Under the pieces are notes generated by a model. That model made no database searches. It saw nothing but the letters and a program-made list of their open reading frames with translations, and was not told the DNA's origin. From contig WHVD01000013.1 in assembly GCA_015178975.1 (NCBI GenBank), positions 992,001 to 1,056,000 of the forward strand: a stretch of 64,000 bases of DNA, given 5' to 3'. Positions within the stretch are counted from its first letter, which is position 1; each line of letters starts with the position of its first letter. The stretch comes from Hysterangium stoloniferum (lineage: Eukaryota; Basidiomycota; Agaricomycetes; Hysterangiales; Hysterangiaceae). A program made the position numbers and the translations under genes. Shown piece by piece: positions 14,284-61,204 of this stretch.

Positions 14284-14527
14284 TGTTAGAAAACATGAGT
14301 AATGTAGAAAATGAATAGCCAGACTAGGGATTGAACCCAGGATCTCTCGATTACATAACGAAGGTGTTAACCACTACACCATCTGACCTTGGGTAGGTTT
14401 GGTCTTACACTGTACTTAAGGATATAACCCTAAGCACCATTCCTATTAGATCATATACACACTGAACTCAGAGCTGTACACCATATGGTCCCAGTTGGAA
14501 CAATGGTTGGTATTATATAATCTAACA
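14284..14527 (-). repeat. Solo tRNA-bearing LTR, second family (T2), inside Gy3 gag-pol
   Basis: A 244-bp unit bounded by TGTTAGAAAAC and AATCTAACA, with exact target duplication GGAGG (14279-14283 and 14528-14532). On the minus strand it runs TGTTAGATTATATAATACC, then a tRNA-like module, a T-run (CATTTTC), and ends TTTTCTAACA. Apart from the short terminal TGTTAGA it does not resemble the 251-bp family, yet has the same design: the tRNA module near the LTR 3' end in sense orientation, then Ts. It carries no protein frame. Confidence 0.85.
14317..14388 (-). tRNA. tRNA-like module inside LTR (T2 family), 72 nt
   Basis: The acceptor pairs GGTCAGA with TCTGGCT (two G-U pairs). The D stem pairs GTGT with ACAC, with A-box sequence TGGTGTAGTGGTTAAC. 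The T arm is CTGGG-TTCAATC-CCTAG, giving B box GGTTCAATCC. The anticodon arm has only four good pairs and position 33 is not T; the triplet in anticodon position reads TGT. It may be a functional Pol III promoter without being a working tRNA. A TTTT run follows within about 10 nt. Confidence 0.65.
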
Positions 14528-20257: not shown

Positions 20258-21423
20258 ATCTATCTCACAGCATGGTTCCAGAAAGAAGCAGGCATAAGTG
20301 GCTCATGCATCATGGCAGTGACATGATCAGCCATAGTGCGATTGGCTCTTTCTGCAACTCCATTCTGTTGAGGGCGATTGCGAGTAGTATGGTGGCGTAC
20401 TATTCCACATTCATCTGTAAACTTGATAAAGGCATTTGACATATACTCCCCCCCTTTGTCATCCTGCAGAGCTTTGACCTTGCAACCGAGAAGATTCTCA
20501 GCATAAGCTTTGTATCTCTTGAATGCTTCAAATGCATCACTCTTCCGTTTCAAGAACAGAACAGCTCGCAACTTGGTGCAATCATCAATAAAGGTTATCC
20601 AGTAGTGATAACCCTCAGTTGTTTGCACAGGAAGTGGTCCATGTAGATCACTATGAATAAGCTCAAGTGGTGTCTGAGATTGACTTGGTGAGGTAGGAAA
20701 TGAATTGGCAGTCATTTTGCCAGCAAGGCAAGGTTCACAGATAGGATCAGGTTGTTCCTTTGAGTCAAGGTTTAAGCCAACCACCAATCCTTCTCTGATC
20801 ATCTTCTGGACATCAGCATAGCTGTGATGTCCAAGACGGCGATGCCAGAGATTGATATCAAAGAGAAGAGTGGAGGCAGCACCAGCTTGCTCAATAATAG
20901 GTGCAGTGGCACCATTTAGGATGCCTGCATTCTGTGCAGTAACTCTGGCTGTAAACAAAGTCTGGCCAGAGAGTTTGAAATGCATGGTTGTTCGATCAAT
21001 GTGTATGAGTAGTCCTTTGTGTCTTGTGAGATAAAGACAAGACAATAGGTTACTGCGCAGTTGTGGTACATGCAAAACTCTTGTAAGCTCCACAGATCAC
21101 AATTTCCTTCCATTTATAACTGGGTTGAATACCACAGAACCAACTCCTGCAGAGTAGATAACAGTATGATCTGCTAACTTGATTGGGACACATAATGGTG
21201 TGTAGTTACGCAGCCAATGACTATGAGGAGTCATATGACTACTAGCACCTGTATCAGCAAGCCAATCATAGTCAGAACCATTCTGCAGGGTGGAGGAATC
21301 GGATGAGGAGAAAGCAAGTGCATTTCCACTATATTCAACATTGTTCTGAGACATTGTCTTCTGAGGCCTATTTGGCTTTTTCTTCCCTTTAGCACGATTG
21401 GTAAGGACACTCTCCTGTGCTTC
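20258..21423 (-). pseudogene. Copia fragment: gag end, protease, integrase
   Basis: The minus strand reads NRAKGKKKPNRPQKT, protease (WLADTGASSHMTPHSHW near 21250), the gag-pre-integrase domain (LWHRRLGHHSYADVQKMI near 20830) and integrase with HSDLHGP, DDKGGEY and NGVAERANRTMADH. It is nearly identical to the 54450-55600 part of the complete Copia element. There is one stop near 21097. The right end is cut by the miniature LTR element and the left end by LTR sequence. Confidence 0.88.
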
Positions 21424-21446
21424 TGTTAAAGGCATAGAAAAGAATT

Positions 21447-21520
21447 GACCCAGCCTGGGATTGAACCAAGGACCTCCTGGCTTTATATGCAGGTGCTCTT
21501 AACCACTGAGCTACTGGACC
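21447..21520 (-). tRNA. tRNA-like module in TRIM 3' LTR, 74 nt
   Basis: Acceptor GGTCCAG pairs with CTGGGTC (two wobbles). D stem GCTC/GAGC sits in the A box (TAGCTCAGTGGTTAAGAG). The T arm is CTTGG-TTCAATC-CCAGG, giving B box GGTTCAATCC. The anticodon stem CCTGC/GCCAGG has one extra C, and the loop ATATAAA keeps T33 with triplet ATA. The extra base and A34 make translation use doubtful. TTCTTTTC follows as a likely Pol III stop. Confidence 0.7.
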
Positions 21521-21727
21521 TATAGTCTAGTATTATATGATGGATTATATATACATATATATAAGGACTTGTGATGCCAACTTGTGCTCTTATAACAGTT
21601 TATATAACTGATGGCAAGCCTGGGTCTTATAACAGTCTGTCACATATAGATATTGTATTTTCCCATTTCTAACACTTCCCCTGAAATCAATATCTAGTCT
21701 ATACCCTACGCAGCAGATGAAGCTGAA

Positions 21728-21741
21728 CGGGGCCCATAACC
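21728..21741 (-). other. TRIM primer-binding site, initiator-Met anticodon-arm type
   Basis: On the minus strand GGTTATGGGCCCCG directly follows the 5' LTR. Its complement, CGGGGCCCATAACC, reads like the 5' side and loop of an initiator-Met anticodon arm (CAT within CCCATAA). Similarity to the D arm seems to continue to about 21705 (CGCAGC and GAAGC). Half-tRNA priming of this kind is known from Drosophila copia and yeast Ty5. Confidence 0.7.
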
Positions 21742-21764
21742 TGTTAAAGGCATAGAAAAGAATT

Positions 21765-21838
21765 GACCCAGCCTGGGATTGAACCAAGGACCTCCTGGCT
21801 TTATATGCAGGTGCTCTTAACCACTGAGCTACTGGACC
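21765..21838 (-). tRNA. tRNA-like module in TRIM 5' LTR, 74 nt
   Basis: It is identical in the module to 21447-21520, with the same extra C in the anticodon arm. It lies in the LTR that would drive transcription of the element. Confidence 0.7.
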
Positions 21839-21992
21839 TATAGTCTAGTATTATATGATGGATTATATATACATATATATATAGACTTATGATGCCAACT
21901 TGTGCTCTTATAACAGTTTATGTAACTGATGGCAAACCTGGGTCTTATAACAGTCTGTCACATATAGATATTGTATTTTCCCATTTCTAACA

Positions 21993-25607: not shown

Positions 25608-25858
25608 TGTTAGAAATGGGAAAATACAATATCTATATGTGACAGACTGTTATAAGACCCAGGTTTGCCATCAGTTATATAAACTGTTATAAGAGCACAA
25701 GTTGGCATCATAAGTCCTTATATATATGTATATATAATCCATCATATAATACTAGACTATAGGTCCAGTAGCTCAGTGGTTAAGAGCACCTGCATATAAA
25801 GCCAGGAGGTCCTTGGTTCAATCCCAGGCTGGGTCAGTTCTTTTCTATGCCTTTAACA
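25608..25858 (+). repeat. Solo TRIM LTR with tRNA-like module
   Basis: TGTTAGAAATGGG to CCTTTAACA, 251 bp, with exact target duplication TAGTA (25603-25607 and 25859-25863). Confidence 0.92.
25762..25835 (+). tRNA. tRNA-like module in solo TRIM LTR
   Basis: Same 74-nt module as 21447-21520, in sense orientation, followed by TTCTTTTC. Confidence 0.68.
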
Positions 25859-29176: not shown

Positions 29177-29427
29177 TGTTAGAAATGGGAAAATACAATA
29201 TCTATATGTGACAGACTGTTATAAGACCCAGGTTTGCCATCAGTTATATAAACTGTTATAAGAGCACAAGTTGGCATCATAAGTCCTTATATATATGTAT
29301 ATATAATCCATCATATAATACTAGACTATAGGTCCAGTAGCTCAGTGGTTAAGAGCACCTGCATATAAAGCCAGGAGGTCCTTGGTTCAATCCCAGGCTG
29401 GGTCAATTCTTTTCTATGCCTTTAACA
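29177..29427 (+). repeat. Solo TRIM LTR with tRNA-like module
   Basis: TGTTAGAAATGGG to CCTTTAACA, 251 bp, with exact target duplication AGATT (29172-29176 and 29428-29432). Confidence 0.92.
29331..29404 (+). tRNA. tRNA-like module in solo TRIM LTR
   Basis: Same 74-nt module, with A box, B box and TTCTTTTC intact. Confidence 0.68.
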
Positions 29428-34443: not shown

Positions 34444-34747
34444 TGTTAGGGTATGATATTACAGCTCTAACATAGTCTATTATGATCTCTATATTTTTCT
34501 GATATTTGTAGTATTTTTCCCAGCACTATAGGTGCAGTATTGAATAAGTTACCTAGTAAGGTAACTGATGTGTAGGTGCTTAGGTAAGCACCCTGTAGCA
34601 TACTCTGCTGTGGGTGTGGGAAGTCTCCTTAGTGTTTACTTTCCTCACACTCACAGGTATGTAGTTATTTCATAGATGAATACACTTAGTATTTACTTTC
34701 CTCACACTCATAGGGTGTTTGTCAAGAGTTATTCAACTGTTTCAACA
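34444..34747 (+). repeat. Copia LTR family G with adjoining primer site
   Basis: TGTTAGGGTATGATATTAC to CTGTTTCAACA, 304 bp, directly followed by GGTTATGGGTCCCAG (34748-34762), the initiator-Met anticodon-arm type primer site. It is therefore a 5' LTR. Solo copies are at 35660 and 37479. Confidence 0.85.
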
Positions 34748-36433
34748 GGTTATGGGTCCCAGCTTCTAAACTGGTACATCCAGTTGTCATCTGCACAATC
34801 CATCACTTTGCACATCTTTTCTGACAATTTCTATTTGTTCAAAACACTCTACATTACATTTGGATTTTATTTTGGTTATATCTTCTTGGATTTTGGCCTG
34901 ATTTGGTCACTTTTTAGACTCACATCTCACACCTGTGATTGTGTGCATTGTTTGCCCATTTAGGTGCCCATGTCCATAAAAGGAAATATATTCCCACGCT
35001 CCAAATCACTTGTTGTCACTCAATTTTGCTTTTTTTGGGCAACTTCACTTTTATCACCCTTATGACTCACCCTGTCACACCCTGTCACCTCTCTCTCCAG
35101 TCACACTCTTCCCTTACATCTCAAGTACTTCACAGTATCATCTGGGTCTGTACCACATCATTTTACCTTTTAACATGGTCTTTTAGATACAATGAACTTG
35201 AACTGTTGGTACTGTGCTCTTCAGAGGGCTTTTGTTTTTACCTTCCTTGCAATATCACGGTAACCCTGTTGAGCAAGGTGGTGTTACAACTGCTTATCCA
35301 ATTACTTAGTTCTTTTCAAGTTAAATTCTTGGTGGATATTGACATGTCATAGTATCCAGTGATACTTACAAATGTAGTATCATATTGGAAGAAAATAATT
35401 ATGAGGATTGGAGACATGATATAATTGGTCTTTTTTGTGTATAGTGAACTGTCTTTCTATTGCCACTGGCAAAGAAAAACAACCTAGTGATACTAGTTTA
35501 CAGTCTGCCTAGTTGGAACGCTCCAATAAAGCAGCTGGTATCATATGGCACTCTCTTGGACCTACACAGTGCACCCATGTTGACATTGATGACGGTCCTG
35601 ATGATATGTGGTCTAAAATTGAAAAGGCACATAATAAACAACTCCCTGCAGTTCGTTTTTGTTAGAGTATGATATTACAGCTTTCATATAGTCTATGATA
35701 TTCCCTATATTTTTCTGATATTTGTAGTATTTTTCCCAGCATTGTAGGTACAGTATTGAGTGAGTCACCTAGTAAGGTAACTGATGTGTAGGTGCTTAGG
35801 TAAGCACCCTGTAGCATACTCCACTGTGGGTGTGGGAAAGTCTCCTTAGTGTTTACTTTCCTCACACTCACAGGTATGTAGTTATTTCACAGTTGAATAC
35901 ACTTAATGTTTACTTTCCTCACACTCATAGAGTGTTTGTCAAGAGTTATTCAACTGTTTCAACAGTTTTAGTGCCTACAATGACCTCTTTAATATTCAGA
36001 AGAAACCTGATGAATTTTTGACTTTATTAATAAGTCATGTTGACAAGGTTTGTGCACATGTCCAGAACTTGCATCCAAAGGGGTACACTCTTGCCATGCT
36101 AGATGATGAGCTTGCTGCTCTCACTTAACTTTGTTCTCTGCCTGAATCTGACTCTGTGTGGAGTTCATCTTTAATGATGAATACTACTATCACATTCTCT
36201 AATGTCAAAACTCACTTTGTATCACAAAAGAGTCTGCAGTCTGCCAGAAGTTTAGAGACAGCAAACAAGATTGTGTCAAAGACTTCCAACACTTCTGGTA
36301 AAGTTCTGTGCACATTCTGCAATGGTTCCAGCAACACCCAAGACAATTGTTACAAGTATGCAAATGCACAGAAACAGGCAAAGACCAGAATTGAGCAGAA
36401 GAAAAAGGAGTATAAAGAAAGAAAGGCTGTTAA
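34748..36433 (+). pseudogene. Copia leader and gag relic
   Basis: After a long noncoding leader, gag-like sequence appears near 35350 (degraded ILEENNYEDW and an IIGLF-like run). It resumes around the nested LTR and reads AYNDLFNIQKKPDEFLTLLI and ELAALT near 35970-36125. It ends with a zinc knuckle, CTFCNGSSNTQDNCYKY near 36308. A stop at 36126 and frame changes make it dead. It is cut by a truncated TRIM LTR at 36434. Confidence 0.7.
35660..35964 (+). repeat. Solo Copia LTR family G in Copia gag
   Basis: 305 bp with exact target duplication GTTTT (35655-35659 and 35965-35969). It splits the gag relic of the same family. Confidence 0.92.
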
Positions 36434-36595
36434 TGTTAGAAATGGGAAAATACAATATTTATATGTGACAGACTGTTATAAGACCCAGGTTTGCCATCAG
36501 TTATATAAACTGTTATAAGAGCACAAGTTGGGATCATACAGTAAGTCCTTATATATATGTATATATAATCCATCATATAATACTAGACCATAGAT
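36434..36595 (+). repeat. Truncated TRIM LTR, tRNA module lost
   Basis: TGTTAGAAATGGG through the AT-rich TATATATATGTATATATAAT stretch to ACTAGACCATAG, ending just where the tRNA-like module should begin. A 4-bp insertion (ACAG) lies near 36540. The neighbouring sequence is an inverted Copia piece. Confidence 0.85.
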
Positions 36596-51296: not shown

Positions 51297-51548
51297 TGTT
51301 AAAGGCATAGAAAAGAATTGACCCAGCCTGGGATTGAACCAAGGACCTCCTGGCTTTATATGCAGGTGCTCTTAACCACTGAGCTACTGGACCTATGGTC
51401 TAGTATTATATGATGGATTATATATACATATATACAAGGACTTATGATGCCAACTTGTGCTCTTATAACAGTTTATATAACTGATGGCAAGCCTGGGTCT
51501 TATAACAGTCTGTCACATATAGATATTGTATTTTTCCCATTTCTAACA
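51297..51548 (-). repeat. Solo TRIM LTR in Tc1 relic
   Basis: Plus strand TGTTAAAGGCATAG to CCATTTCTAACA, 252 bp, with exact target duplication GAAAC (51292-51296 and 51549-51553). Confidence 0.93.
51320..51393 (-). tRNA. tRNA-like module in solo TRIM LTR
   Basis: Same 74-nt module, minus strand. Confidence 0.68.
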
Positions 51549-51650: not shown

Positions 51651-51901
51651 TGTTAGAAATGGGAAAATACAATATCTATATGTGACAGACTGTTATAAGA
51701 CCCAGGTTTGCCATCAGTTATATAAACTGTTATAAGAGCACAAGTTGGCAACATAAGTTCTTATATATATGTATATATAATCCATCATATAATACTAGAC
51801 TATAGGTCCAGTAGCTCAGTGGTTAAGAGCACCTGCATATAAAGCCAGGAGGTCCTTGGTTCAATCCCAGGCTGGGTCAATTCTTTTCTATGCCTTTAAC
51901 A
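51651..51901 (+). repeat. Solo TRIM LTR, opposite orientation, 102 bp from the previous one
   Basis: 251 bp with exact target duplication AGAAC (51646-51650 and 51902-51906). Confidence 0.93.
51805..51878 (+). tRNA. tRNA-like module in solo TRIM LTR
   Basis: Same 74-nt module with TTCTTTTC after it. Confidence 0.68.
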
Positions 51902-53659: not shown

Positions 53660-54024
53660 TGTTAAAACTGCCTCCACTGTCTCCAAGACCTTCTGGAACC
53701 TTCTAGAACCTTCTAGAAGCTTCCAGCATGTTCCAGAGTATTTCCAGTTCATTTCCCATGACAGCTGTCAATCAGCTGTCACTTTGTATTCCAGCTGTCA
53801 ATCAGCTGTCAGTTTCCATTCAAGCTGTCAATCAGCTGTCACTTCTGACAGCTGTCAATCAGCTGTCACTTCTGACAGCTGTCAACCAGCTGTCACTTTT
53901 GACAGCTGACAAGCCTACTGATGTATAACATATATAAGCTTGTAGTTAGTGACCTGAATAGAAACAACTTTCCTCAGACTTGTGTGTGTCATGTGTCACA
54001 GTAAGTCACAGGTCACATTTAACA
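53660..54024 (+). repeat. Copia 5' LTR with five E-box-like repeat units
   Basis: TGTTAAAACTGCCTCC to CACATTTAACA, 365 bp. About five AGCTGTCAATCAGCTGTCA type units lie between 53760 and 53900. Confidence 0.93.
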
Positions 54025-54265
54025 GGTCATGGGCCCCGCGCTCTAAGTGCTCTAGTACTGTATAACGTTTTGCAAACTCGCTTCTTTTGAGTAAGTTTCA
54101 GCCTATACTTTATATTCCCCTGCCAGGCCCAGCCTTATTGCTGTTGCTAGTAGGGAGGAACTTGTATGCTACTAAGGCTGAGTTTCCCTCGAGACTACCG
54201 TCTGGACCTCGAGTTAAATACCTTTTTTCTCAACTTCTTTGCGAGTTTGCTGCGTCTATACTACA

Positions 54266-57200
54266 ATGCCATCTTCCATTCCCCCATTCCCTAAAGTCAA
54301 TCAGACTAAAGGGAAGAAGGCAAACAGCACTCAAGAGACAATGTCTCAGGGCAATGCACCCACTGCATTTCTCAAATGTGCTTTCTGCTCCATGACCAAC
54401 CATACTATGGACAAGTGTCATCGCTTCATCAAGAAGCAGCAGGAAGCACAGGAGAGTGTCCTTACCAATCGTGCTAAAGGGAAGAAAAAGCCAAATAGGC
54501 CTCAGAAGACAATGTCTCAGAACAATGTTGAATATAGTGGAAATGCACTTGCTTTCTCCTCATCCGATTCCTCCACCTTGCAGAATGGTTCTGACTATCA
54601 TTGGCTTGCTGATACAGGTGCTAGTAGTCATATGACTCCTCATAGTCATTGGCTGCGTAACTATACACCATTATGTGTCCCAATCAAGTTAGCAGATCAT
54701 ACTGTTATCTACTCTGCAGGAGTTGGTTCTGTGGTATTCAACCCAGTTATAAATGGAAGGAAATCGCGATCTGTGGAGCTTACAAGAGTTTTGCATGTAC
54801 CACAACTGCGCAGTAACCTATTGTCTTGTCTTTATGTCACAAGACACAAAGGACTACTCATACACATTGATCGAACAACCATGCATTTCAAACTCTCTGG
54901 CCAGACTTTGTTTACAGCCAGAGTTACTGCACAGAATGCAGGCATCCTAAATGGTGCCACTGCACCTATTATTGAGCAAGCTGGTGCTGCCTCCACTCTT
55001 CCCTTTGATATCAATCTCTGGCATCGCCGTCTTGGACATCACAGCTATGCTGATGTCCAGAAGATGATCAGAGAAGGATTGGTGGTTGGCTTAAACCTTG
55101 ACTCAAAGGAACAACCTGATCCTATCTGTGAACCTTGCCTTGCTGGCAAAATGACTGCCAATCCATTTCCTACCTCACCAAGTCAATCTCAGACACCACT
55201 TGAGCTTATTCATAGTGATCTACATGGACCACTTCCTGTGCAAACAACTGAGGGTTATCACTACTGGATAACCTTCATTGATGATTGCACCAAGTTGCGA
55301 GCTGTTCTGTTCTTAAAACGGAAGAGTGATGCATTTGAAGCATTCAGGAGATACAAAGCTTATGCTGAGAATCTTCTGGGTTGCAAGGTCAAAGCTCTGC
55401 AGGATGACAAAGGGGGTGAATACATGTCAAATGCTTTCATCAAGTTTACAGATGAATGTGGAATAGCATGCCGTCATACTACTCGCAATCACCCTCAACA
55501 GAATGGAGTTGCAGAACGAGCCAATCGTACCTTGGCTGATCATGTCACTGCCATGATGCATGAAGCGCGTATGCCTGCCTCATTCTGGAATCATGCTGTG
55601 GCATCTTATGTCTATGTATGGAATCGTCTGCCTACTGCACCATTGCCTAAAACTACACCCTATGAGCAATGGTACAAGCAGAAACCAGATGTGAGCAATT
55701 TGCGAGTGTGGGGGTGTACTGCCTATGTTTACATTCAAAAGGACAAAAGGAAGTCACTTCAGTCACACATGGAGAAATGCCTCTTTCTAGGCTATCCTGT
55801 GGGATACAAAGGTTGGCAATTCTACAACCCTGTTACAAAGAAGTTTATCATCTCTGAATGGGCTGTATTTGATGAACGCCACTTTCCTGGTCTATCTACT
55901 ACTGGACCAATGCCTAATATTAGGCTTTTCCCAAATATACCAAACTCTGACATTCCTTGATTTGTGCCAGAAGTAGAGGGGGATAATGATATTTCTGTCC
56001 CTCCTACTCATATTCCTGCACCTCCTGCTTATATTCCTGCACCTCCTGTTCAGATTCCTGCACCTCCTGCTCAGATTCCTGCACTTCCTGAACCCATTCA
56101 ACTACCTCCTCCACCTGCACCAGAACCACAGCTTTGTCGCTCTCAGCGTGTTCCAAAGCAACCTGGTGAATGGTGGAAGGTACAACCAGCTCCAGCTCTA
56201 GCTGAAGATGATGATGAGGACATTGATTATAAGGAAGTACAGTTTGTTGGAACAGCTTCAACTGCTGATCCACAAAACTACAAGCAGGCTATAAAAGGTG
56301 ATGATGCAGATAAATGGCAAGAGGCTATAAATGCAGAGTACAATACACTGGTAGAAAACAAGATGTGGGAACTTGTTGACCTCCCAGTTGGTGCAAAGGC
56401 AATTGGTTCGGGTTGGGTGTTTAAAGTCAAACACAATGCAGATGGCACCATTGAGCGTTATAAAGCTCGTCTTGTTGCCAAAGGATACTCACAACGTCCT
56501 GGCATTGACTACAATGAAGTGTTTGCACCTACTTTTAGACCTGCCACTCTGCATTTGATTCTGGCCCTAGCTGCCATTGAAGACATGGACTTGCGCTCTG
56601 TTGACATTTCTGCTGCTTTCACCCATGGTGACCTTGATGAGACAATCTATATGAGACAACCTGAAGGCTTCCATCAAGGAGGTCCTAATAAGGTTCTCAG
56701 ACTCTTGAAATCACTTTATGGTCTCAAGCAGGGATCTCGTCAATGGAACATCAAGTTACATGGTGCACTTACTGAAATGGAGTTCAAACGAATTGAATCT
56801 GATACCTCTGTTTACATTTATTGAGGTGAAGATCTTTATACCCATTTACATTGATGATATTACATTTGCATCCAAGTCCACTCTTGCCATTGACAAAGCT
56901 GTCAAGCAATTGTCCCTGCATTTCAAATGCCGTGATCTTGGACCCACTGTTTATTTACTTGGTGTGGGAGTTGGCAGAGATCGCTCTAAGCGACTCCTTA
57001 CTCTTGATCAGCGACAGTTTATTCTCAACATGCTTGAGCGTTATAACATGTCTGACTGTCATCCAGTTCTCACACCTATGACACCTGGTACATCTCTTTC
57101 CAAAGAAATGGGTCCTGAGAATGCTGCAGAGGTGGATTTCATGCGTAGTGTTCCTTATCTCAGTGCTGTTGGGTCTTTACAATACCTGGCTACTATGACC

Positions 57201-57818
57201 CGTCCAGATATTGCTTATACTGTGTCCTACTTGGCACGTTTTAATGGCAATCCTGGACCAAAGCATTGGACAGCAGTGAAGCACTTGTTCAGATACCTAA
57301 AAGGTACACTGGAATACAAGTTGCATTATTCTGGTAAATGTGGCTCTGAATTATTCACCACATACACTGATGCTGCTCATGGTGATTGCATTGATTCTGG
57401 AAGATCCACTGGTGGTTATGTAACTATGATGGCTGGAGGTGCTATTGGCTGGAGTAGTAAACTGCAAAGTATTGTCACACTTTCTACAACTGAAGCAGAA
57501 TTTGTCTCTGCTGTAGAAGCTGGCAAGGAGATTGCCTGGATGCGGCAAATCCTAGGTGAATTTGGCTACCAAGTTGATCAACCCTCCACTCTACACATTG
57601 ACAACCAGTCTGCCATCAGTGTTGCTAAGAACCCTGAGCATCATGGAAGGATGAAACATCTTGACCTGCACTACTATTGGCTTAGGGATGCTGTAAATGC
57701 CAAGTGTATTGCTCCTTCCTATATTCCTACTGCAGAACAAATTGCAGATATTCTAACCAAGCCTCTATCTACTCCCAAGGTTCAATTTTGCCGTGATGGA
57801 ATGGGTATAAGGACTTAG
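54266..57818 (+). pseudogene. Copia pol (zinc knuckle, protease, integrase, RT, RNase H), three pieces
   Basis: From the ATG at 54266: zinc knuckle CAFCSMTNHTMDKCH, protease WLADTGASSHMTPHSHW near 54601, pre-integrase LWHRRLGHHSYADVQ near 55016, integrase with HSDLHGP, DDKGGEY and NGVAERANRTLADH (55200-55550), RT from GSGWVFKVKHNADGTIERYK to YIDDITFASKS near 56850, and RNase H with YTDAAHGDCIDSGRSTGGYV near 57364 and DILTKPLS near 57749. A TGA at 55958 and a frame change near 56825-56850 break it. Otherwise it is complete from protease to RNase H. The integrase-RT linker contains repeated IPAPP units. Confidence 0.9.
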
Positions 57819-57919
57819 TTTCTTGTTTTCTTTCTTACTCTCTGTAGTTTAGCAAAGTCTCTCTCTCTGTCTCTCTCTCTGTTTCTTTTTCTTTGGAGAC
57901 ATGTGAGATCAGGGGGGTC

Positions 57920-58230
57920 TGTTAAAACTGCCTCCACTGTCTCCAAAACCTTCTGGAACCTTCTAGAACCTTCTAGAAGCTTCCAGCATGTTCCAGGGTA
58001 TTCCCAGTTCATTTCCCATGACAGCTGTCAATCAGCTGTCACTTTGTATTCCAGCTGTCAATCAGCTGTCAGTTTCCATTCAAGCTGTCAATCAGCTGTC
58101 ACTTATGACAGCTGACAAGCCTACTGATGTATAACATATATAAGCTTGTAGTTAGTGACCTGAATAGTAACAACTTTTCTCAGACTTGTGTGTGTCACGT
58201 GTCACAGTAAGTCACAGGTCACTTTTAACA
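57920..58230 (+). repeat. Copia 3' LTR with three repeat units
   Basis: Same ends as the 5' LTR but 311 bp, having three rather than five CAGCTGTCA type units. A CT-rich stretch precedes it near 57850. Confidence 0.93.
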
Positions 58231-58642: not shown

Positions 58643-59458
58643 TTTCCATTAATATTTCTACTTTCTCTCTATTTTATTATACATATATAATTAGTTCGAT
58701 GACCTATGCATTTGGTACATTGACTCTTGTGGGCACATACATGCCAGACTTATGTATTCTAGCACTGGTAGTTAGAACTCAGAACTAAATAGTCAATATA
58801 TCATTGTGTTGTACCTAAACGGTTGATATTCTTTGTATATAGAATGGTTAAAACTTCCACCACTCTTCACAGCAAGTCATGGTTACAGGGTGAAAAGTGT
58901 CTGTTTGTTTGGTGCTGAGTGCACCCACAAGTATACACAGAGCTTTGAACTAATGAACAATATTCGAAAAATATAAAGGATAGAAAAATATGAATAAAAT
59001 GTGTAAAATATAAATAAAATAAAAGGAGTGTTTTACCACAATGAAGCTATGGTAAAAGCATACCCTTCACACACAGGCATACATAGATCCTTGAACTAAT
59101 GTAAATGCATGTAAACAAATATTTTACTTAGTCAAAAAATAGTAGAAAAATAAGGAAAAAAGATAGGAAATATAATATGATGAAACAGTTACATTTCCCA
59201 GAGAGGGGTGCCTCTCACAGGCTGAGACAATACCTTAATCACAACTTGCAGAGGACACTTCAAAGGATGTCTAGCTAGTTGTGGTTTCTAGGTAAAAGTG
59301 TCTAATTTGACACTTAGGACATCTATTATTATACATATGTCTGTATGTCCATGAGTGTCCATGTGCCTATAGGGATACATAGACCTTTGAACTATTAGGA
59401 GAGAGATATTCAATGAATATGTCAGAAGAATAAAAGGAAATAAAATGAAAAAAATATA
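58643..59458. repeat. Mosaic of LTR fragments (families A and B)
   Basis: 58643-58872 resembles LTR-B in plus orientation and ends CCACTCTTCACA. 58906-59071 is an inverted family A piece. 59072-59456 has two diverged inverted LTR-B-like pieces (CTCTCACAGGCTGAGAC near 59212). No frames. Confidence 0.65.
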
Positions 59459-61063
59459 CAGTGGGTCAAAAAACTGCCCCAATGTTTGTGCATTTTAGAA
59501 AGATTGATACTGTGTGAAGGAATGACATCAGCGAAAATTCTGAAAAATTCACATGATATACTAGAACATGTTGGCTATCTACCAACTTAAGAAATCATGT
59601 GATTCCAATCAAAACTCATTGCTTAATAAATCAAACAAAATAATCACTCATTGGGGCAGTTTTTTGACCCTCTATCATTTTCTCTGATTTTCAATATTAC
59701 ACACCAGTATAAGGTAGGAGTGGATCATATGAATCATCAACATGTCATGTGACCTTATTTGTATCAATTTGGCATGCTGAACTTTGTTCATTCATCTCCT
59801 TGACTCCTTACCACCACTATGAAATCCATCTCTGCAGAAAAGCATTCTTCTGTTATTTTTCTCCTCAATGAGGGGTATTCCCAGTGTCAAATTCAAGCTA
59901 GGACTGGTCTGGGAAAGGGTACTATTGGCAGAATCAGTAGAGAGGTAGAGGGGGATAAGGAAAATCATCCTGGTGGCCATTCTTCCAAGCTTTCCCCTTA
60001 TGATAAACAGTCAATTATCCATTAAATCAGCTCTGGGAAGCTTGACAATGCTGTCCAAGCCACCCAATTTATAAATTCCATCATATCTACCTCTGTCACT
60101 CCTCAGACTGTTAGGAATGTGTTGAAGGAAGCTGGCTTTAGGTCAGCAACAAAGAAGAAAGTCCCTATATTCAAGGGGTCTCATCGTCAGCAACATCTAA
60201 AGTTTGCCCAATACCATGAAAATTGGACTATGGAGGACTGGAAGAGGGTGTTGTGGACTGATGAGACAAAAATCAATAGGATTGGGTTAGATGGGAAGGT
60301 ATATGTTTGGAAGCAACAAGGGGAACCAGTATCAGACAGGACCACCACACCAACTATCAAACATGGAGGGGGGAATAACTTGATGGTTTGGGGGTGTATG
60401 GGCTGGAATGGGGTGGGGAAGCTGATAGAGGTGCAGAAGAACATGGATACAGTGCAGTATTATGAGATTTTGGAGGAGGGAGTGGAGGAGAGCATTGAAA
60501 GTTTGGAGATGGCTGAGGATAAGTGGTACTTCCAACAGGACAATGATCCAAAACATACCTCAAAAAAGGCAGACCAGTGGTTATCTGACAATAACATCAT
60601 TCCTATGAATTGGCCTGCCCAATCTGATCTAAATCCCATTGAACACCTCTGGCAACACCTCAAGGCCAAACTCCAACAATATGACATATCACCCAAAGGA
60701 GTACATAAATTATGGGACAGGGTGGCAAAGGAGTGGACTGAAATACCACCAGAGACATGTCAGAAGCTAATAGAAAGCATGCCTAGGAGGATACAGGCAG
60801 TTTTAAAGGCAAAGGGGGGTCATACAAAGTATTAGATTGTAAAATAATAGAGGGTCAAAAAACTGCCCCAATGAGTGATTATTTTGTTTGATTTATTGAG
60901 CAATGAGTTTTGATTGGAATCACATGATTTCTTAAGTTGGTAGATAGCCAACATGTGCTAGTATATCATGTGAATTTTTCAGAAGTTTTGCTGATGTCAT
61001 TCCTTCACACAATATCAATCTTTCTAAAATGCACAAACATTGGGGCAGTTTTTTGACCCACTG
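59459..61063 (+). mobile_element. Tc1-type DNA transposon, nearly intact, composite 217-bp inverted repeats
   Basis: The ends CAGTGGGTCAAAAAACTGCC and its inverse are flanked by TA on both sides (59457-59458 and 61064-61065), the Tc1/mariner target. The inverted repeats are 59459-59675 and 60847-61063. Each repeat also has the GGGTCAAAAAACTGCCCC motif at its inner edge in the opposite sense, so every end is itself a miniature inverted-repeat unit. It carries one transposase gene with a single stop. Confidence 0.92.
59819..60835 (+). pseudogene. Tc1-type transposase with one internal TAA
   Basis: One frame of 339 codons from the ATG at 59819, interrupted only by TAA at 60023-60025. The N-terminal HTH is EKHSSVIFLLNEGYSQCQIQ. 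The catalytic region has WTDETKINRIG (first Asp), GGGNNLMVWGCM, QQDNDPKHTSKKADQW (second Asp) and SDLNPIEHLWQHLK (Glu), with DD34E spacing. Length and order are normal for Tc1 transposases. It may be inactive, though the element's ends are intact enough to be mobilised in trans. Confidence 0.9.
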
Positions 61064-61204
61064 TATAATCAAATCAGAAATTATATTAGTGATGCAGGCT
61101 TTTAGAAACTTAGCCCTATCCCTCACAGCTTGGGGTAGAATCTTTGACCCTCCCACCCACCCTCTAGTGTCTTGATGGAGGAACCTTACATGGGAAGTGG
61201 TATG

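Follow-up and report, generated by a model that had tools for sequence, protein, structure and literature searches.

A Helenus-type TRIM family of Hysterangium stoloniferum, very probably mobilised by a Copia family with a common primer site but unrelated LTRs

A 64,000-nucleotide stretch of the Hysterangium stoloniferum genome (contig WHVD01000013.1; hereafter the window) carries, at 21424-21992 on the minus strand, a 569-bp LTR-interior-LTR element, a TRIM, whose 67-bp interior (21675-21741, minus strand) is below the size needed to encode retrotransposon proteins. The interior is flanked by direct repeats at 21424-21674 and 21742-21992 that are 251 bp each and 98.0% identical. Element sense is the minus strand, as given by the primer-binding site (PBS) GGTTATGGGCCCCG (21728-21741, minus strand), which abuts the 5′ LTR (21742-21992, minus strand), and by the polypurine tract AGGGGAAG (21675-21682, minus strand), which abuts the 3′ LTR (21424-21674, minus strand). 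An initial annotation made from the letters alone had described this 251/67/251-bp layout and an interior with a primer site and a purine tract, and both descriptions were borne out. The window copy has no 5-bp target-site duplication (TSD), its flanks being GCTTC and TATAT.

That missing duplication is what favours two solo repeats lying in tandem by chance, which the initial annotation had named as the conclusion to draw should other two-LTR copies or the common spacer be absent from the genome; it proposed a genome search for full copies with 5-bp duplications. We searched the genome assembly (111 Mb, 554 contigs) with the 569-bp query and scored the best 40 of 346 candidates, which yielded 60 matches, copy counts thus being lower bounds; the window, all of 50 loci and six of a further 30 were annotated. 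The loci read contained at least 62 full TRIM interiors and at least 33 single LTR-interior-LTR copies, 22 of which have a perfect 5-bp TSD, whereas the other 11, among them the window copy, have none. Against these 33 copies with the same interior, 22 of them with TSDs, the chance tandem is to all intents ruled out, its probability being negligible. Ten of the 33 LTR pairs are free of substitutions, so TRIM activity was recent. Three of the 33 cannot be counted as independent, since they belong to a tandem repeat of 5.4 kb on C543; in this region (C543:266371-277766; L023, L028 and L029) the three TRIM copies and Copia junctions recur every 5.4 kb, a host segment having been duplicated in tandem. 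Within the window, all four intact solo LTRs of the family have a 5-bp TSD: 25608-25858 (plus strand, TAGTA), 29177-29427 (plus, AGATT), 51297-51548 (minus, GAAAC) and 51651-51901 (plus, AGAAC); a truncated LTR at 36434-36593 (plus) has none. Plasmid records gave no match.

The family also forms tandem arrays. Five complete arrays of three to seven LTRs each were found, and four of the five have one perfect outer duplication. The seven-LTR array (L047, C534:47742-49976) has its interiors alternately 318 and 356 bp apart within one TSD, GTATT. At another locus (L006/L050, C109:83821-84773) a TRIM has inserted into a second TRIM LTR, within its tRNA module, with the TSD AGAGC and an inverted partial LTR alongside.

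Each LTR bears a tRNA-like module, at 21764-21838 in the 5′ LTR and 21446-21520 in the 3′ LTR, which both ARAGORN and Rfam RF00005 call as a tRNA on the minus strand (RF00005 score 48.6 bits, with the cut-off at 29); ARAGORN labels it tRNA-Tyr with anticodon ATA. The A box TAGCTCAGTGG (21821-21831 and 21503-21513), the B box GGTTCAATCCC (21775-21785 and 21457-21467) and a TTTT run (21756-21759 and 21438-21441), which starts 5 nt beyond the last base of the module, occupy identical LTR positions in both LTRs (162-172, 208-218 and 234-237, respectively). The module with boxes and T-run that had been annotated in each LTR was thereby located and independently called; both boxes fit the tRNA consensus. 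At LTR positions 112-130, 25-43 bp upstream of the module, is a TATA-like stretch on the minus strand (21545-21563 in the 3′ LTR, matched directly; 21863-21881 in the 5′ LTR, positioned by offset) that is a putative promoter. Free folding of the 75-nt module was no better than that of dinucleotide shuffles (z -0.30), so that its support lies in tRNA likeness and not in extra stability. No sequence derived from 5S rRNA was found, Rfam at gathering score giving only tRNA matches within the window.

Variation among LTR copies bears on whether the module matters to the element. In an alignment of 105 LTR copies, which are non-independent and were chosen by similarity to the window copy, variants shared by at least two copies occur in 2 of the 75 module columns versus 27 of the 176 others (p 0.0025), and singleton variants are even (p 1.0), with 11 of the 75 module columns and 27 of the 176 others; shared and singleton variants differ at p 0.03, and only 4 of 177 stretches of 75 columns are equally clean, all of them at the module. 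With one LTR per locus (n=53), the shared columns number 1 in the module versus 16 elsewhere (p 0.027) and the singletons 5 versus 19, and the constraint signal is weaker, with p 0.37 for shared versus singleton. The depletion of inherited variation lends moderate support to constraint on the module in the source elements and falls short of proving Pol III use.

Less surely, the tRNA module may act as a Pol III promoter for the TRIM, perhaps with a Pol II TATA promoter working alongside it; the conservation of the boxes and T-run and the depletion of inherited module variation would support such a role. Because the TTTT run within the 5′ LTR may halt Pol III short of the interior, a Pol III transcript of the whole element would depend on read-through. 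This possible early stop, together with the TATA-like stretch upstream of the module and a fold stability not above shuffles, makes it a serious though lesser possibility that the module serves no Pol III promoter function, being a passenger or an element for Pol II or chromatin, and that Pol II transcribes the TRIM from that stretch. Against this reading stand the fit of both boxes to the tRNA consensus, the depletion of inherited but not of singleton variants in the module, and the retention of a B box and TTTT run by two LTR families with different anticodons, the second of which is described below.

TRIMs with tRNA-derived LTRs are already on record: according to the accessible part of PMC10886601 they were named Helenus (TRIMp3) in 2024 by Kojima, and are reported from the Pucciniales and a few Agaricomycetes. 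The initial annotation had seen in the window element a fungal parallel to the plant TRIM Cassandra that uses a tRNA module; a TRIM with a tRNA-type module in each LTR, probably fungal, it is, but it is not a new kind, having been published as Helenus (PMC10886601, in the portion available). The family has the features of that group, namely a short non-coding two-LTR element with TG..CA LTR ends (TGTTAG..TTAACA), tRNA-derived sequence with A and B boxes in each LTR, a PBS and a polypurine tract both between the LTRs, 5-bp TSDs as in fungal and plant members, though not in the window's two-LTR copy, and, as in fungal members, a link at the sequence level to a Copia partner through a shared PBS and mosaic insertions. 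It is one more Helenus-type member and may already be catalogued in Repbase.

All 14 nt of the PBS are complementary to the anticodon arm of initiator tRNA-Met: the genome has three initiator tRNA-Met genes (by pattern search, with which ARAGORN agrees), and these carry CGGGGCCCATAACC across the anticodon arm, the exact complement of the 14-nt TRIM PBS. Because the PBS matches this tRNA, self-priming by the TRIM's own module was set aside. In PMC10886601, priming by the anticodon arm of initiator tRNA-Met is the dominant primer type in fungal Helenus.

Within the window, a site of the same type follows the 5′ LTR of a Copia element at 53660-58230 on the plus strand (LTRs 53660-54024 and 57920-58230, of 365 and 311 bp), whose PBS at 54025 has one mismatch to that of the TRIM. 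BLAST at E 1e-3 found no similarity between the TRIM LTR and the Copia LTR. Pol_BBD, gag_pre-integrase, integrase and RVT_2 domains were recognised in the interrupted reading frames of this copy, whereas a search of them for a gag domain found none; a longer Copia copy outside the window, L108, does carry one, and in a frame that is open. Copia elements lacking gag may therefore make up another, larger tier of non-autonomous elements beside copies such as L108, and no whole intact helper was seen among the Copia copies read. Among 120 listed relatives of the Copia reverse transcriptase, most without a species name, the named ones come from Agaricus bisporus, Lyophyllum shimeji, Mycena citricolor, Sphaerobolus stellatus, Antrodiella citrinella and Neolentinus lepideus, all six of them Agaricomycetes, so that a rust (Pucciniales) host was not supported. 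The left flank of the window TRIM is itself a Copia-family fragment (20266-21423, minus strand; 97.15% identical to 54443-55600), which the TRIM abuts at 21423; the right flank is not Copia.

Elsewhere in the genome the two families are joined; neither these mosaics nor the window Copia nor the second Helenus-type LTR described below figures in what the initial annotation said of the TRIM. Writing T and t for the TRIM LTR and interior, and C and c for those of Copia, six loci were examined as t without a complete T upstream, and five of them have C there. A pattern for the 3′ junction found 73 t-LTR junctions. On the 5′ side, 55 of these interiors have T (units inside arrays included), 16 have C and 2 were classed as other. 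One of these two (C544), placed there by the cut-off, is C with a diverged end, which brings the interiors preceded by a Copia LTR to 17 of 73; the remaining one, L106 (C335), is an 81% relative whose 5′ flank is unrelated, and it was left out of the Copia count. Reciprocally, T is joined to c at six junctions, versus 69 LTR-c junctions found by a laxer pattern. On the purine-tract side there was no exchange, t being followed by T in 73 of 73 cases and c by C in 67 of 67, even though both purine-tract patterns were written for the exchanged form and an exchange there was thus easier to find than a normal join. The exchange is therefore one-sided (Fisher test, 17/73 versus 0/73, p 5e-6; 6/69 versus 0/67, p 0.028).

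Eighteen mosaics could be read at both ends, and twelve of them have perfect TSDs, all twelve different, while six have none. Simple C-t-T insertions account for 12 of the 18, with a perfect 5-bp TSD in 9. For the six mosaics that are longer or reciprocal, the sequence read covers both ends and the junctions but not the central part of the Copia interior. A TSD is present in T-c-C-t-T (TTTTT), in C-t-T-c-C (ATCAC) and in T-c-C (AGAGA), and absent from one further C-t-T-c-C and two further T-c-C. Less weight attaches to the duplications TTTTT, AGAGA and CTGTC, since these words are simple or recur locally. Two more C-t loci are truncated (L055 and C543). Since the Copia LTRs of the hybrids vary in length (308 to 349 bp, 16 measured) and their interiors are of both 66 and 67 bp, the fusions arose repeatedly. 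Hybrid LTRs were not seen in the mosaics read. At L107 (C534:229400-230500) the TG end of a TRIM LTR is fused to an inverted piece of Copia interior, which resembles an autointegration product.

Mosaics and arrays could in principle have formed after integration, by ectopic or unequal recombination among neighbouring copies. Element recombination or unequal crossing-over is a published route to tandem TRIMs (PMC6934838 and PMC7215508, in the parts available), the alternating 318/356-bp array suggests later amplification, the C543 tandem repeat with its three single copies attests that later duplication happens, and the TSD is missing from six of the 18 mosaics and from one of the five complete arrays. 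We nevertheless consider this origin improbable: the LTRs are unrelated, so that only about 20 bp, the LTR end plus the PBS, is common at the joins; the exchange is confined to one side; and a single perfect outer TSD encloses twelve of the 18 mosaics and four of the five complete arrays.

Taken together, these data suggest that this Helenus-type family is very probably mobilised in trans by the Copia family, with which it shares a PBS but no LTR. In second-strand transfer, plus-strand strong-stop DNA comprises the whole LTR and the PBS and anneals through the PBS. The mosaics fit an intermolecular version of this step at the shared primer site. TRIM RNA would be packaged with Copia RNA in one particle, where both would be primed by a fragment of initiator tRNA-Met; strong-stop DNA from one template would then anneal to the PBS complement of the other and give a Copia LTR followed by a TRIM interior and a TRIM LTR. 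Such transfer would produce C-t-T and T-c-C with pure LTRs, joined at the PBS only and with the purine-tract side unexchanged, whereas first-strand switching would give hybrid LTRs instead. When repeated, it would yield longer chains and tandem arrays, which the Copia integrase would presumably insert. The hybrids show that the two cDNAs meet, not that Copia makes most ordinary TRIM insertions.

The joins might also be made by the host, through alternative end-joining of separate cDNAs at the PBS microhomology and not by strand transfer of the reverse transcriptase in the particle. All 12 LTR-exchange junctions inspected fall at the PBS, which would suit such joining, and a review (PMC12786077) reports that host alternative end-joining uses PBS microhomology for second-strand transfer. 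We judge it rather unlikely, although sequence alone cannot separate it from strand transfer; both cDNAs would still be needed together at the transfer step, so the conclusion on the helper would be little changed. As for intermolecular strand transfer at a shared PBS, we can only suggest, at somewhat less than an even chance, that it is frequent in LTR elements primed by the anticodon loop, with TRIM and helper joined in ordered chains in one particle and integrated as units.

A second Helenus-type family in the window allows a comparison. Its solo LTR at 14284-14527 (minus strand, 244 bp) has a tRNA-Thr-like module (14316-14388), a TTTT run and the TSD CCTCC. A genome search scored the best 40 of 410 candidates; the four two-LTR copies read have interiors of 168-169 bp, identical LTR pairs in all four cases and TSDs in three of four. 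The PBS of this family starts with TGGTAGCAACTCCA, by inspection the complement of the 3′ end of initiator tRNA-Met plus CCA. Of 19 LTR/interior hits, 18 end in the family's own LTR (last 12 nt), which gives 0 of 18 mosaics versus 17 of 73 in the TRIM family (p 0.02); the 19th hit (C146) is not an element of the second family. Mosaic formation is thus not general. Other elements in the window include an LTR-like pair of a different family (34444-34747 and 35660-35968, 92.6%), with a PBS of the initiator-tRNA-Met anticodon type after the first repeat (34748, two mismatches), and a Tc1/mariner-like transposase at 60026-60835 (DDE_3, HTH_Tnp_Tc3_2), which is adjoined by 97% inverted repeats at 59455-59681 and 60841-61067.

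What is new here is the evidence for a helper, a Copia family that appears to share the primer site and not the LTR. Soybean autonomous and non-autonomous elements reportedly swap LTRs, to go by the title of work by Du et al. from 2010. In PMC10886601 the Helenus partner was inferred from the similarity of the PBS and from a single internal region in common, whereas here it is inferred from mosaic insertions. Cassandra of plants resembles the present family as a TRIM with a Pol III module from a small-RNA gene in its LTRs and with tandem (LTR-interior)n arrays, which PMC7215508 traces to either of two mechanisms, one being template switching; it differs in that the module is 5S rRNA there and a tRNA here, and in having no known helper according to PMC10886601. 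The TRIMs of PMC4717578, in the portion seen, include LTR-interior-LTR-interior-LTR arrays drawn with flanking TSDs, and helpers were proposed for some, but by shared LTR and internal sequence and with arrays of a single family, whereas in our case the LTRs are unrelated and helper and TRIM units also alternate. The template-switch complexes of the Triticeae (Sabot and Schulman 2007, PMC1950507, available part) are likewise three-LTR insertions with one pair of 5-bp TSDs ascribed to reverse-transcriptase switching, but between related templates in the R region of the LTR, while the switch proposed here would be at the PBS between elements with unrelated LTRs. Recombination also links autonomous and non-autonomous elements in Athila (PMC2410132, in the text available), where same-clade recombinant lineages replicated, in contrast to the first-generation joins of unrelated LTRs seen here. 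In the accessible sections of the literature, mostly outside subscription journals, we found no TRIM-helper fusions joined solely at the PBS.

How the dependence of TRIMs on a helper is maintained is described as unknown in the Discussion of PMC10886601, in the part available, with none indicated for Cassandra. One-sided, TSD-flanked Copia-TRIM fusions provide a test for a helper that needs only a genome and no LTR homology; they suggest that a shared tRNA primer site suffices to link two cDNAs, and they bear on whether tandem TRIM arrays form before or after integration. If transfer at a shared PBS is indeed frequent, tandem TRIM arrays would be products of reverse transcription, foreign 5′ LTRs would reveal a TRIM's helper, and gag-pol interiors could come to lie behind a TRIM LTR and its Pol III module.
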